This document shows, one piece after another, positions 2,241 through 10,605 of a stretch of 27,625 nucleotides of DNA. Within the stretch, counting starts at the first letter, position 1. Each line of letters opens with the position of its first letter. This DNA is from a virus. Under the pieces are notes generated by a model, which was not told where the DNA came from, ran no database searches, and saw only the letters and a list, made by a program, of their open reading frames with translations. The translations under genes were made by a program, and so were the position numbers. The stretch is taken from IMG/VR virus record IMGVR_UViG_3300025011_000162, positions 1 to 27,625 of that record; one strand, 5' to 3'.

Positions 2241-2304
2241 TAAAAACGAAAAACCCGGTTGCTGAATATTCCTTACCGAAATAAGGAATACGCAGCCCCG
2301 GGTT
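2241..2304 (-). terminator. Strong intrinsic terminator ahead of the lysis operon (tR'-like)
   Basis: Read on the minus strand, AACCCGG and TATTCCTTA arms pair with TAAGGAATA and CCGGGTT arms, with a CTG/CAG block between and small internal mismatches. The loop is TTTCGG. The hairpin is followed at once by TTTTTCGTTTTT. The tract lies only on the minus-strand side, so the terminator works leftward. It separates the early operon and the promoter at 2327-2355 from the holin gene. Confidence 0.85.
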
Positions 2305-2326
2305 CTATGCCTCGTGAGCTAGTTCA

Positions 2327-2355
2327 ATTATACGATGTTAGCGTATTAATTACAA
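2327..2355 (-). promoter_or_regulatory. Candidate late promoter (pR'-like)
   Basis: On the minus strand, TTGTAA (2355-2350), a 17-base spacer and a perfect TATAAT (2332-2327). Transcription would begin near 2320 and meet the terminator hairpin about 16 bases later. It lies just after the stop of the 103-residue gene at 2377. Confidence 0.6.
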
Positions 2356-2376: not shown

Positions 2377-2688
2377 CTATTGATAACGTTTTCTATTGCC
2401 TGATTTTCTTGCCCGTTGATTATGTTTTCCGGTGGTCATACGTAGATAACGAGCTCGCCGCCTTTCCTTTAGGGACTTTTGATAGTCTAATTCCAAAACA
2501 GCTTTGTTGTATTCATTCATAAAAGCAACAATGGGCTTTGATATTTCATCGACAAGATACAGCATCCCTCGCCGCATTCCCTGAGCGATAGTAACCATCA
2601 AATCCGCGGAACCTTTAAGTAGATTTAGATATTCATCAAGTGGGTCCATTTGTCCATCCCCGTTCTCCATTATATCCATTTTGCTCAT
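2377..2688 (-). CDS. Small protein with basic C-terminus, candidate late regulator
   Basis: A 103-residue protein coupled to the gene before it by an ATGA overlap. The N-terminus is acidic (MDIMENGDGQMDPLDEY), the middle is helical (residues 15-65), and the last 35 residues are strongly basic (LKERRRARYLRMTTGKHNQR, then RKSGNRKRYQ). No family is recognised. It is the last early gene and lies 22 bases before the late promoter, the place Q occupies in lambdoid phages, and an Arg-rich tail fits RNA or polymerase binding. That it is an antiterminator is inference from place and charge only. Confidence 0.6.
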   Translation of the reverse strand: MSKMDIMENGDGQMDPLDEYLNLLKGSADLMVTIAQGMRRGMLYLVDEISKPIVAFMNEYNKAVLELDYQKSLKERRRARYLRMTTGKHNQRARKSGNRKRYQ

Positions 2689-2888
2689 TCAGGCCGGCTG
2701 GTGGTTTTGACCGCTATCTCATACACCCGATGGTTGCGAACATCAAAAGTGATTAATCCATATCCCTTTTTCCTCACATCCTCCAGCGCCTCGATCATGC
2801 AGCCGATCTCGCTGATGGTGAGTAAAACCTGCAGCCGCTGCCAGGAAGCTTCCTGTTGGGTGATGGTGTCCTCATCGATGTTCGCCAT
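2685..2888 (-). CDS. Small hypothetical early protein
   Basis: A 67-residue protein beginning MANIDEDTITQQEASW. It contains a helical central part (LQVLLTISEIGCMIEALEDV) and a beta-like end (YGLITFDVRNHRVYEIAVKT). AGGTG lies six bases before the ATG at 2888; two codons of frame upstream begin with GTG and are unlikely. Its stop overlaps the next start as ATGA. It is not recognised as a known family. Confidence 0.6.
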   Translation of the reverse strand: MANIDEDTITQQEASWQRLQVLLTISEIGCMIEALEDVRKKGYGLITFDVRNHRVYEIAVKTTSRPE

Positions 2889-5164: not shown

Positions 5165-5387
5165 CGCACCTCCGATCGTGCTATCATGGAGGGGTGGCGC
5201 CCACGAGGTTCCACCCTGCCGGCCAGCTGTTAGAGCAGCTGGCCGGCGTACATAAACGGTGCGGCTTCGATATGCCCCGGAGGGCAGAGATCCATGCCAG
5301 ACAAAAGCGCTAAGCAGCGCAGGGGAAACGGACGGAGTTGAACCGCCACCGGGTGGGGGGGGGACACCTGGCCTGCCGTGCGTTTCC
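5165..5387 (-). promoter_or_regulatory. Structured leader with a T-box-like element (candidate tRNA-sensing riboswitch)
   Basis: Minus-strand hairpins in order: GGAAACG/CGTTTCC (5387-5324) with an inner ACGG/CCGT helix; GCGCT/AGCGC (5320-5307) followed by TTTT; TGCCC/GGGCA (5286-5273); a perfect 12-bp stem GCCGGCCAGCTG (5247-5218). Directly after comes AGGGTGGAACCTCG (5217-5204), one base off the T-box consensus AGGGUGGNACCGCG. AGGG pairs with CCCT (5193-5190) and GTGG with CCAC, leaving TGGAACC in a bulge as in T-box antiterminators. The next bases, CCTCC (5192-5188), are complementary to the GGAGG ribosome site (5173-5169), which suggests control of translation. Stem I is short and its specifier codon is not assigned. 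Confidence 0.4.
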
Positions 5388-7203: not shown

Positions 7204-7485
7204 CTAGCGACGCCGCTCAATTTCTTCATCCAGGGTGGGTTCGAATTCGATCCCCGCCTGGGCCTGCAGCACGTTGATACATTCCCGCGCCCATTCTCTT
7301 GCCGCGTGGGTAGCCTTGTCCGATCCGATTACCCGGAAAAGAGTCATGAGCCCAGGCTCGTGTTTCCCGTTCACCCACTGAGACACCGATTGCTTTTCGG
7401 CATCGATGCCCAGCTCAGCGGCGAATTCGTCCTGGGTTTTGCCTTCGAGGTATTTTTTTGTGATTTGCGGGATTGTTAAGCTCAT
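7204..7485 (-). CDS. Cro-like helix-turn-helix regulator, first early gene
   Basis: A 93-residue protein. The N-terminal helix-turn-helix (about 5-45) is KYLEGKTQDEFAAELGID and then QSVSQWVNGKHEPGL, the XRE/Cro pattern. The C-terminus is helical and ends in ERRR. It is transcribed leftward from the promoter at 7523-7551, divergent from the repressor gene, and is the first gene of the early operon, so a Cro-like role in shutting repressor synthesis is likely. The start is ATG at 7485 after AGAGAG. Confidence 0.75.
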   Translation of the reverse strand: MSLTIPQITKKYLEGKTQDEFAAELGIDAEKQSVSQWVNGKHEPGLMTLFRVIGSDKATHAAREWARECINVLQAQAGIEFEPTLDEEIERRR

Positions 7486-7520: not shown

Positions 7521-7522
7521 CA

Positions 7523-7551
7523 ATATTAGCAACATTTAACTGGTTTGTCAA
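7523..7551 (-). promoter_or_regulatory. Early leftward promoter
   Basis: TTGACA (7551-7546), 17-base spacer, TAATAT (7528-7523). This is a near-consensus housekeeping promoter for the Cro-like gene and early operon. Its -35 box is six bases from that of the divergent repressor promoter. Confidence 0.8.
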
Positions 7552-7557
7552 GTGGTT

Positions 7558-7586
7558 TTGACAAAATGATTACAAATTGCTATATT
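7558..7586 (+). promoter_or_regulatory. Repressor promoter producing a leaderless mRNA
   Basis: TTGACA (7558-7563), 17-base spacer, TATATT (7581-7586). Transcription would start six or seven bases later, at or next to the ATG at 7593, so there is no room for a ribosome site. The two divergent -35 boxes form an inverted repeat, TTTGTCAA/TTGACAAA, which may also be an operator. Confidence 0.7.
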
Positions 7587-8322: not shown

Positions 8323-9456
8323 ATGCCAAAACGATCCCACGGCGAAGGTCAACTTTATAAGCGGGAGAATGGTTCCTACACCGCCCGCGTCACCCTTGAC
8401 GGCCGGCGCCTCTCCAAAACGTTCCGGCTGCGCCGCGAGGCCCTGAAATGGATCGAGACCCTGCGCGGCCAGGGCCAGCAGGGGCTCACTTACGACTCCG
8501 CCCAGACCACGGTTAGCGAGCTGCTCGAGCGTTGGCTGCGCCTCAAGGCAGCTCAGTCCAGACTCTCCACGATCGAGAGCTACACGCGCATTGCCCGGCT
8601 GCACATTATCCCGGAGATCGGCCGCATGCCTCTCATGGAGTTAAACGCCGCCCGCATTCAGGCGCTTTATGACCGGATGGCGCAAAATGGCGTCAAAAAT
8701 CCGACCATAAAATACACCCACACCGTCCTGCACGGTTTTTTCTCCCACGCTAAGAAGCTCGGTATGATCGGCCAGAACTGGACCGAGATGGCCAGCGTCC
8801 CGCGCCGCGCCAAGCGCGAAGAGACCAAGGTCTGGAATGAAAACCAGGTTAACTTGTTCTTGAATTACATGAAAGGCGATCTCTTTTACCGCCTGGCTTT
8901 CAGCACCGGCATGCGCCGCGGTGAGCTGCTGGCGCTCCAGTGGAAGGATCTGGACTGGGCTTCGGACATGCTCAAGGTTCAGCGTCAGGTTTACCGGCCG
9001 GATGGCGGCGGGTACGTTTTTCAGGGCCCAAAAACGGACCGCGGCACCCGCTCGATTCGGCTCGGGCATGGTTTGATGGATGCGCTAAAAATCCAGTTTA
9101 GCCGGACCATCCCGCTCATGCAACTCGCGGCTGGATCTAGCTGGAAAAACCATGATCTGATCTTCCCGTCTTACCAGGGCGGACCGCGCCAGGGGGATGC
9201 CGTCTCGAAGGAATTTCACCGCCTGGCAGCTGCAGCTGGACTCCCGGTCATCCGCTTTCACGACATCCGCCACACTGCCGCCAGCATCATGCTGCTGCAT
9301 GGAGAACCGCCGGTCCGCGTCGCCGGCATACTTGGTCAGACCGTGGCCGTTTTGCTCACCACCTACAGTCACTACATCCCAGACAGTCAGGAGTCCACCG
9401 CCACCCTGATGGATTCCATCACCACGGTTACCAGCATTTCGCTGGAAAAAAATTAA
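8323..9456 (+). CDS. int: Tyrosine-recombinase integrase
   Basis: A 377-residue integrase. Residues 1-60 form an AP2-like arm-binding domain (GEGQLYKRENGSYTARVTLD), 64-150 the SAM-like core-binding domain, and 170-355 the catalytic domain. Catalytic residues visible: Arg198 (TGMRRGEL), Lys237 (GPKTDR), His313 and Arg316 (HDIRHT), Tyr348 (TTYSHY). The usual His of LGH is Gln339 (LGQT). It inserts phage DNA between attP and attB and removes it with Xis. GGGG lies before the ATG. The gene ends exactly where the left attP repeat starts, and the integrase probably binds those repeats. Confidence 0.95.
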   Translation: MPKRSHGEGQLYKRENGSYTARVTLDGRRLSKTFRLRREALKWIETLRGQGQQGLTYDSAQTTVSELLERWLRLKAAQSRLSTIESYTRIARLHIIPEIGRMPLMELNAARIQALYDRMAQNGVKNPTIKYTHTVLHGFFSHAKKLGMIGQNWTEMASVPRRAKREETKVWNENQVNLFLNYMKGDLFYRLAFSTGMRRGELLALQWKDLDWASDMLKVQRQVYRPDGGGYVFQGPKTDRGTRSIRLGHGLMDALKIQFSRTIPLMQLAAGSSWKNHDLIFPSYQGGPRQGDAVSKEFHRLAAAAGLPVIRFHDIRHTAASIMLLHGEPPVRVAGILGQTVAVLLTTYSHYIPDSQESTATLMDSITTVTSISLEKN

Positions 9457-9730
9457 AAGATTGGCACCGATTGGCACTGAAAGAGAAGCGAATCAAAGCG
9501 CAACCCGTATATATGGAATTCTCAAGCGTAAAAATCGTACATGTGGTGGTGAAATGGAAATAATCTCGCAAAGTATGTATAATTATAAGTTGTCCTACCC
9601 GCCATTTCTATTGGTTTTTAGCCCCTTTTTTAAGTTCTATCGTTCATTTTCACGGCTAAATTTTAGATATTTTGTTCCATCAATTTCCCCACGTGCCAAA
9701 ATTTTTAAAAAGATTGGCACCGATTGGCAC
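9455..9730. other. attP: attP region with paired arm-type repeats
   Basis: A 23-bp direct repeat occurs at 9455-9477 and 9708-9730. Each copy is itself a tandem pair, GATTGGCAC-C-GATTGGCAC, after AAAA. An inverted half-site, GTGCCAA, lies at 9693-9699. The roughly 230 bases between are AT-rich and show no convincing gene. Short direct repeats on both sides of an AT-rich core beside the integrase gene fit arm-type sites of an attP. The left copy overlaps the integrase stop and the right copy ends eight bases before the next start. The crossover core cannot be placed. Confidence 0.6.
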
Positions 9731-9738
9731 GGGGGGCT

Positions 9739-10605
9739 ATGAATACATTACCCCTGCGTTCAATCCAGTGGCACTATATTGCGCGAATTTTGATCCGCGC
9801 CAGCATCCTGGCCAGCGGTTTGTTCTTATTTATCGCCCTCTTCGCCCCGTCCTTGATTCTCACCGCGCTGCCCCTTGGTCTAGATTGGACCGGCACGTTT
9901 CTCCCGGCGATCTCCAGCGACGCACCTTACGATCATCCTGGTTTTTATTCCCCGCCCTGGGTGATCACATTATTCACTCCCCTCACCTGGCTGCCAGCCC
10001 CTATTGCGGTCTGGATTATTATCCTCGGTTCGATCATCGCGTGGATCCTGGTCATGAGGAAATTAGGCGCCAGCCTAATGGTGATTTTGATGATGCTGCT
10101 GACCCCTCAGTTATGGTGGGGGGTGCTTTACGCCAATCTTTATTTTATGATTCCTCTCGGTCTGCTGCTGCCCCGCCCGCTTGGCCTTATATTTGTTCTG
10201 GCCAAACCGCAGGCCGGCATCGGCATCGCGATTTTCTGGATTATCGATAGTTTCCTCCAGGGTGGCTGGAAGTCGTTATTGAAAACCGTGACACCGATCT
10301 GTGTTATTTCCCTGCTCTATTGCATCCCCTATGGCGTGTGGCCGCTCGAGCTTTTCAGTGCCGTGAAAGTGGGCTGGAATCTGTCCGTGTTCCCGTACCT
10401 TGCCGGCGCCGGTGTGATACTATTAATCCATGCAGTTCGCAGCCGAAAACCCGGTCTAGCGATCGCTGCCGGTCCTTTTATTTCGCCCTACGTCGGTGCT
10501 CAGTCGCTTCCAGTGGCTGCTCTTGGCCTGCTGCCATCGGAATTAGAGACCGGCATCACGTTGGTTGCTCTGTGGGCTGCCTGGTTGATGCGGGGAAATA
10601 TGTAA
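9739..10605 (+). CDS. Polytopic membrane protein, candidate lysogenic-conversion gene
   Basis: A 288-residue protein with about eight hydrophobic segments, for example ILASGLFLFIALFAPSLIL, VWIIILGSIIAWILVM, and further ones to LVALWAAWLM. A first external loop with LDWTGTFLPA before a Pro-rich turn recalls GT-C/GT87 (DUF2029) glycosyltransferases, but no catalytic motif is certain. ATG at 9739 is chosen after a G-run; an in-frame TTG at 9724 lies inside the attP arm site. It lies on the plus strand with integrase, opposite to the tail genes and converging on the fibre, a usual place for cargo that alters the lysogen surface. The function is inference. Confidence 0.65.
   Translation: MNTLPLRSIQWHYIARILIRASILASGLFLFIALFAPSLILTALPLGLDWTGTFLPAISSDAPYDHPGFYSPPWVITLFTPLTWLPAPIAVWIIILGSIIAWILVMRKLGASLMVILMMLLTPQLWWGVLYANLYFMIPLGLLLPRPLGLIFVLAKPQAGIGIAIFWIIDSFLQGGWKSLLKTVTPICVISLLYCIPYGVWPLELFSAVKVGWNLSVFPYLAGAGVILLIHAVRSRKPGLAIAAGPFISPYVGAQSLPVAALGLLPSELETGITLVALWAAWLMRGNM

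Follow-up and report, generated by a model that had tools for sequence, protein, structure and literature searches.

A putative promoter-terminator gate ahead of the lysis genes in a temperate phage and its Chloroflexota-phage relatives

A promoter-terminator gate probably precedes the lysis genes of the phage represented by the window, a 27,625-base IMG/VR virus record analysed here in full, and those of roughly twenty relatives among Chloroflexota phages, suggesting that their late genes can be switched on only when the terminator is bypassed. We favour, at a probability of roughly 0.6, an attenuated late promoter that is relieved by antitermination, most likely via an early phage protein for which a DUF2292-like product is the best candidate. 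A host sigma70-type promoter located just past the early operon would drive a late operon starting with the lysis genes, and its transcripts would be cut off ~75 nt downstream by a strong intrinsic terminator that would also stop read-in from the early operon. RNA polymerase would then have to acquire resistance to termination in the vicinity of the late promoter or at it, most likely through an early phage protein, with the DUF2292-like protein encoded at 2685-2888 as the best candidate for this relief. Promoter activity, termination at the hairpin, relief by a phage protein and the identity of that protein are all predictions from sequence.

The window phage is temperate, with genes for an integrase, a portal, a P22-like coat protein and a terminase, and its hosts are likely Chloroflexota, judging from its relatives and from homologues of its lysin. 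Its minus strand carries the early genes, ending at 2377, and a late operon that runs from 2223 through overlapping genes to a lysin and an HNH endonuclease. The first late gene (ORF at 1744-2223) encodes a holin-like membrane protein of 159 amino acids with homologues in about 38 viral contigs and no match in Pfam or PHROGs; the "holin" label is drawn from its membrane segments and position. It is overlapped by an ORF for a 134-amino-acid protein resembling phrog_1397 in PHROGs (1359-1763), and the operon goes on with a lysin-like protein bearing an SH3_3 domain (367-1371, identified by Pfam and homologues) and the HNH endonuclease, a usual terminase neighbour (29-442, identified by Pfam/PHROGs), all on the minus strand. 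Divergent consensus sigma70 promoters (TTGACA-17-TAATAT on the minus strand and TTGACA-17-TATATT on the plus strand) were found at 7522-7586, between the cro-like gene (7204-7485) and the repressor, suggesting that this phage uses ordinary promoters.

An initial annotation had described a promoter with a perfect TATAAT, a strong hairpin, a T-tract and then the holin-like gene, and all of these are present on the minus strand at 2355-2223. The putative late promoter, identified by consensus scan (TTGTAA-17-TATAAT at 2327-2355, with the -35 at 2355-2350 and the -10 at 2332-2327), matches the consensus at 10 of 12 positions including the perfect TATAAT. A 6-kb scan returned five promoters of this kind against 6.8 expected, placing the match alone within chance; it rises above chance because the promoter is conserved in two relatives (L002 and L030) and because promoters are enriched across the loci described below. 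The likely start site is near 2320 and the hairpin stem starts at 2306, which is 20 bases past the -10 and ~14 past the start; the annotation had given ~16 bases. Between them lies the initially transcribed leader AGCTCACGAGGCAT (2307-2320), part of the motif TAGCTC..G.GGCAT.G..CCCGG defined by alignment with L002 and L030, which occurs once in the window and not at all in shuffles. Folding predicts an intrinsic terminator hairpin of 23 pairs and -32.2 kcal/mol at 2252-2306 with a UUUUUCGUUUUU tract, the U-tract TTTTTCGTTTTT (2242-2253) overlapping the last paired hairpin bases. Relative to shuffles the hairpin region has z-scores of -5.8 to -7.5, with 0 of 200 shuffles folding as well, and an Rfam search gave no match. 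The ~18 nt separating the T-tract from the holin-like ATG (2223) are mostly taken up by the Shine-Dalgarno sequence GGAGG (2231-2235) of this first late gene, and the late genes downstream overlap. As the annotation had proposed, no other promoter fits between the terminator and the late genes; late transcription must therefore pass the terminator.

The closest relative found, L002, has a holin-like gene 62% identical to that of the window and repeats the layout as TTGTAA-16-TATAAT, TTAGCTCAGCGAGGCAT, a hairpin whose base is unchanged and whose upper stem differs, TTTTCGTTTTTAACCTGCGGAGG and the ATG, its U-tract TTTTCGTTTTT being conserved relative to the TTTTTCGTTTTT of the window. Both promoter hexamers of the window are identical in L002, and L030 keeps the -10 together with TAGCTC, GGCAT, CCCGG and a terminator with a third upper stem. 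The terminator base and U-tract are kept in both relatives and the upper stem is wholly rewritten with pairing retained. Folded separately, the window, L002 and L030 hairpins form 23, 21 and 19 pairs respectively (counted from single folds of each hairpin) with differing upper-stem pair types, and the second stem changes from GCUG/CAGC to GCGG/CCGC in the same comparison. The differing upper-stem pairs with pairing kept in three phages indicate that the hairpin structure is under selection. Across these phages the transcribed leader is better conserved than the -35/-10 spacer, in which TAC.CTAA is partly common to the window and L002 but not to L030. A search of viral contigs with the leader pattern recovered genuine matches only in L002 and the L030/L031 pair; the other matches were a low-complexity repeat in coding-like sequence and were discarded as not being genuine copies.

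A profile search with the holin-like gene yielded 43 viral loci. Terminators were counted as strong when the hairpin reached at least -15 kcal/mol in stability and its U-tract ended no further than 95 nt from the gene start. Of 37 holin-like loci, 22 have such a terminator ahead of the gene, compared with 12 of 195 control starts (Fisher p=6e-13). The remaining 15 of 37 have none by the same criterion, indicating that the layout is not universal. Promoters were assessed in a set of 20 loci, comprising the 22 less four judged doubtful on inspection (L041, L044, L053 and L054) plus L045 and L085. In the 130 nt preceding the hairpin, nine of these 20 have a sigma70 score of at least 10/12 (shuffle mean 0.36) and five a score of at least 11/12 (shuffles 0.03). 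L033 has a perfect TTGACA-17-TATAAT, and the -35 box is perfect in L008 and in L085. The gap between hairpin and ATG is 12-53 nt in most terminator-bearing loci, leaving no room for a promoter. In L009 the layout precedes a first gene weakly related to the other holin-like genes, and three loci (L049, L064 and L068) have the promoter with the terminator absent. Holin-like loci in Chloroflexota genomes mostly have another gene order without the terminator, with one clear case that has it (L136).

Several leader types were recognised, namely CTAGA.CA..GGGTATCC in L009 and L010, GAGATGAGCGCC in L033, L039 and L045, and CAACTGAATA..CGGAGTT..ACCGCCCGGC in L038 and L085. In the second of these the common leader (L033 3750-3902, L039 3920-4004, L045 2600-2720) includes a hairpin, GGYCCGA..TCGGRCC, with GAGATGAGCGCC before the terminator. 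L045 retains the hairpin and has lost the U-tract, hinting at a role beyond termination. Related small helix-turn-helix-like proteins are encoded just before the cassette in L044, L048, L060 and L067, most of which are without a strong promoter-terminator unit (L044 being doubtful), and perhaps represent an activator-type late switch.

The antiterminator had initially been sought in the 103-residue basic protein encoded just upstream (2377-2688, minus strand), a proposal that our analysis does not support. This protein is not conserved: searches of viral contigs, of phage records and of the loci retrieved gave no homologue, and in L002, despite its almost identical switch, the genes at that place are unrelated and do not match it. 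Its predicted fold is one long helix according to single-sequence prediction. We reasoned that an antiterminator should be common to phages with the same leader. The window and L002 have in common a repressor, a replication-like protein, a cro-like gene, several small proteins and a 67-69-amino-acid protein; the last of these, a DUF2292-like protein, is the only upstream gene common to the window and L030 (by profile) and likewise the only one common to L009 and L010 (54% identical). This 67-69-amino-acid protein (2685-2888, minus strand), with relatives in L002, L009, L010, L030, L050, L062 and L071, is the best candidate for a trans-acting factor and a better one than the 103-residue protein, although a lead and not proof. 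It was detected in 8 of 20 terminator-bearing records versus 0 of 19 others (p=0.003) using a profile trained on those eight, in loci without phylogenetic independence, and it may be that the gene merely accompanies the lysis cassette. Only the L010 relative passes the Pfam DUF2292 model (PF10055; 22.9 vs 22 bits) and the 69-amino-acid protein of the window has no match to it, hence our use of "DUF2292-like" for a protein below the Pfam cut-off. The latter is modelled as helix-helix-strand-strand (pLDDT 85), and a structure search with this model gave no match in PDB or BFVD; nothing relevant on DUF2292 was found in the literature. A more far-reaching and rather unlikely reading is that 60-70-residue DUF2292-like proteins, working at attenuated late promoters across Chloroflexota phages, form a new family of late antiterminators with no relationship to Q, AlpA, N or GafZ.

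The initial annotation likened the region to the Q-controlled late genes of lambdoid phages, and the order of promoter, terminator and lysis genes is indeed real, conserved and recurrent; the likeness was not seen to extend to a lambda-Q or Q21 protein or to a pause element. Searches of 20 records for the lambda-Q and Q21 families gave no match to PF06530 and none over the cut-off to PF03589, and in the PF06323 (Q82) search the control itself gave no signal. A consensus scan of the initially transcribed region for a -10-like pause element, which is part of Q loading (PMC7171158), detected none in the window or L002 and no enrichment overall, with 5 of 17 loci having one where 3.1 were expected. 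Like the window, lambda pR'-tR' (Q-lambda, Q21, Q82) combines a constitutive-looking promoter at the early/late junction with an intrinsic terminator ahead of lysis genes that belong to a single late operon, reachable only through that terminator; it differs from the window, where the terminator begins ~14 nt past the start and no pause element was detected. AlpA acts at alpBCDE of Pseudomonas aeruginosa, where 54 nt separate the start site from the beginning of the terminator tB (PMC7969949), a short promoter-terminator distance with the terminator immediately upstream of cell-lysis genes that resembles the window (PMC7969949, PMC9371919). However, AlpA requires a -10-like pause sequence (PMC9371919) and binds a defined element between the -10 and -35, a spacer that in the window is conserved partly with L002 and not with L030. 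A further parallel is GafZ, a promoter-loaded antitermination factor for the phage-like late cluster that encodes the gene transfer agent of Caulobacter, but there the terminator comes only after the first gene, and GafY and IHF are required for activation as well (PMC11150451). HK022 put is likewise a promoter-proximal phage RNA element that affects termination, although it acts in cis on early transcripts with no protein, and the window leader before the terminator is only ~14 nt (PMC9378689). We suggest that the window switch works like pR'-tR'/AlpA, its promoter-terminator layout not establishing membership of the Q-type class.

Other readings of the same layout were considered. All early genes point the same way into the terminator, and the hairpin might mainly be the end of the early operon, insulating the lysis genes and leaking enough for readthrough to grow with template copies and no antiterminator. 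Consistent with this, the terminator may depend on the cassette following early genes, as L138 and L139 are among several terminator-less relatives in which the lysis cassette follows a structural-looking gene. However, the conserved promoter sits upstream and not downstream of the terminator, which would be wasteful for a mere operon end, and hairpins this stable (-25 to -35 kcal/mol) that carry U-tracts should leak little; we consider an operon end an unlikely explanation overall. The promoter and terminator could alternatively delimit a ~75-nt small-RNA gene, with the lysis gene driven by readthrough of other transcripts. The single-stranded 5' leader TAGCTC..GGCAT is conserved in three phages within a unit that ends in a strong terminator, and terminated late-leader RNAs are known from lambdoid phages. 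We regard a small-RNA gene as very improbable, given that placement at the Shine-Dalgarno sequence of the first late gene recurs in ~20 phages with different leaders, so that it is the layout and not the RNA sequence that is kept.

An antitermination mechanism operating through RNA would account for some of the same observations. In place of a Q-like DNA-loaded factor, antitermination might come from the leader RNA alone, in the manner of HK022 put, or from a protein that binds this RNA (BglG/RAT, N/nut), as suggested by the conservation of the leader over the -35/-10 spacer in the window, L002 and L030, by small hairpins directly before the terminator in several loci including L009 and L010, and by the lack of a detected pause element. 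The ~14 nt of RNA preceding the window terminator stem are, however, too little for a put-type structure, and we consider an RNA-based mechanism improbable. A protein-dependent antitermination switch at the late promoter appears to be the most economical reading. We found no description of late-gene control in Chloroflexota/Chloroflexi phages in the literature searched. If this reading is true, the late-switch design of lambda has a counterpart in a distant phylum that probably relies on another protein, and the leader sequence around which the gate is built varies from phage to phage. It would also provide a compact system for finding a new antiterminator class, consisting of ~130 bp and one small gene.

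Elsewhere in the window, a lone plus-strand gene (9724-10605) between the integrase and tail genes encodes a multi-pass membrane protein of 293 amino acids with no Pfam match. In the early region, two 12-bp arms form a perfect inverted repeat, GCCGGCCAGCTG, around a 6-nt loop, and no T-tract accompanies it (5218-5247). A perfect 23-nt direct repeat, AAAAGATTGGCACCGATTGGCAC, is present at the end of the integrase gene (9455-9477) and again 253 nt later (9708-9730), and may represent attachment-site repeats.
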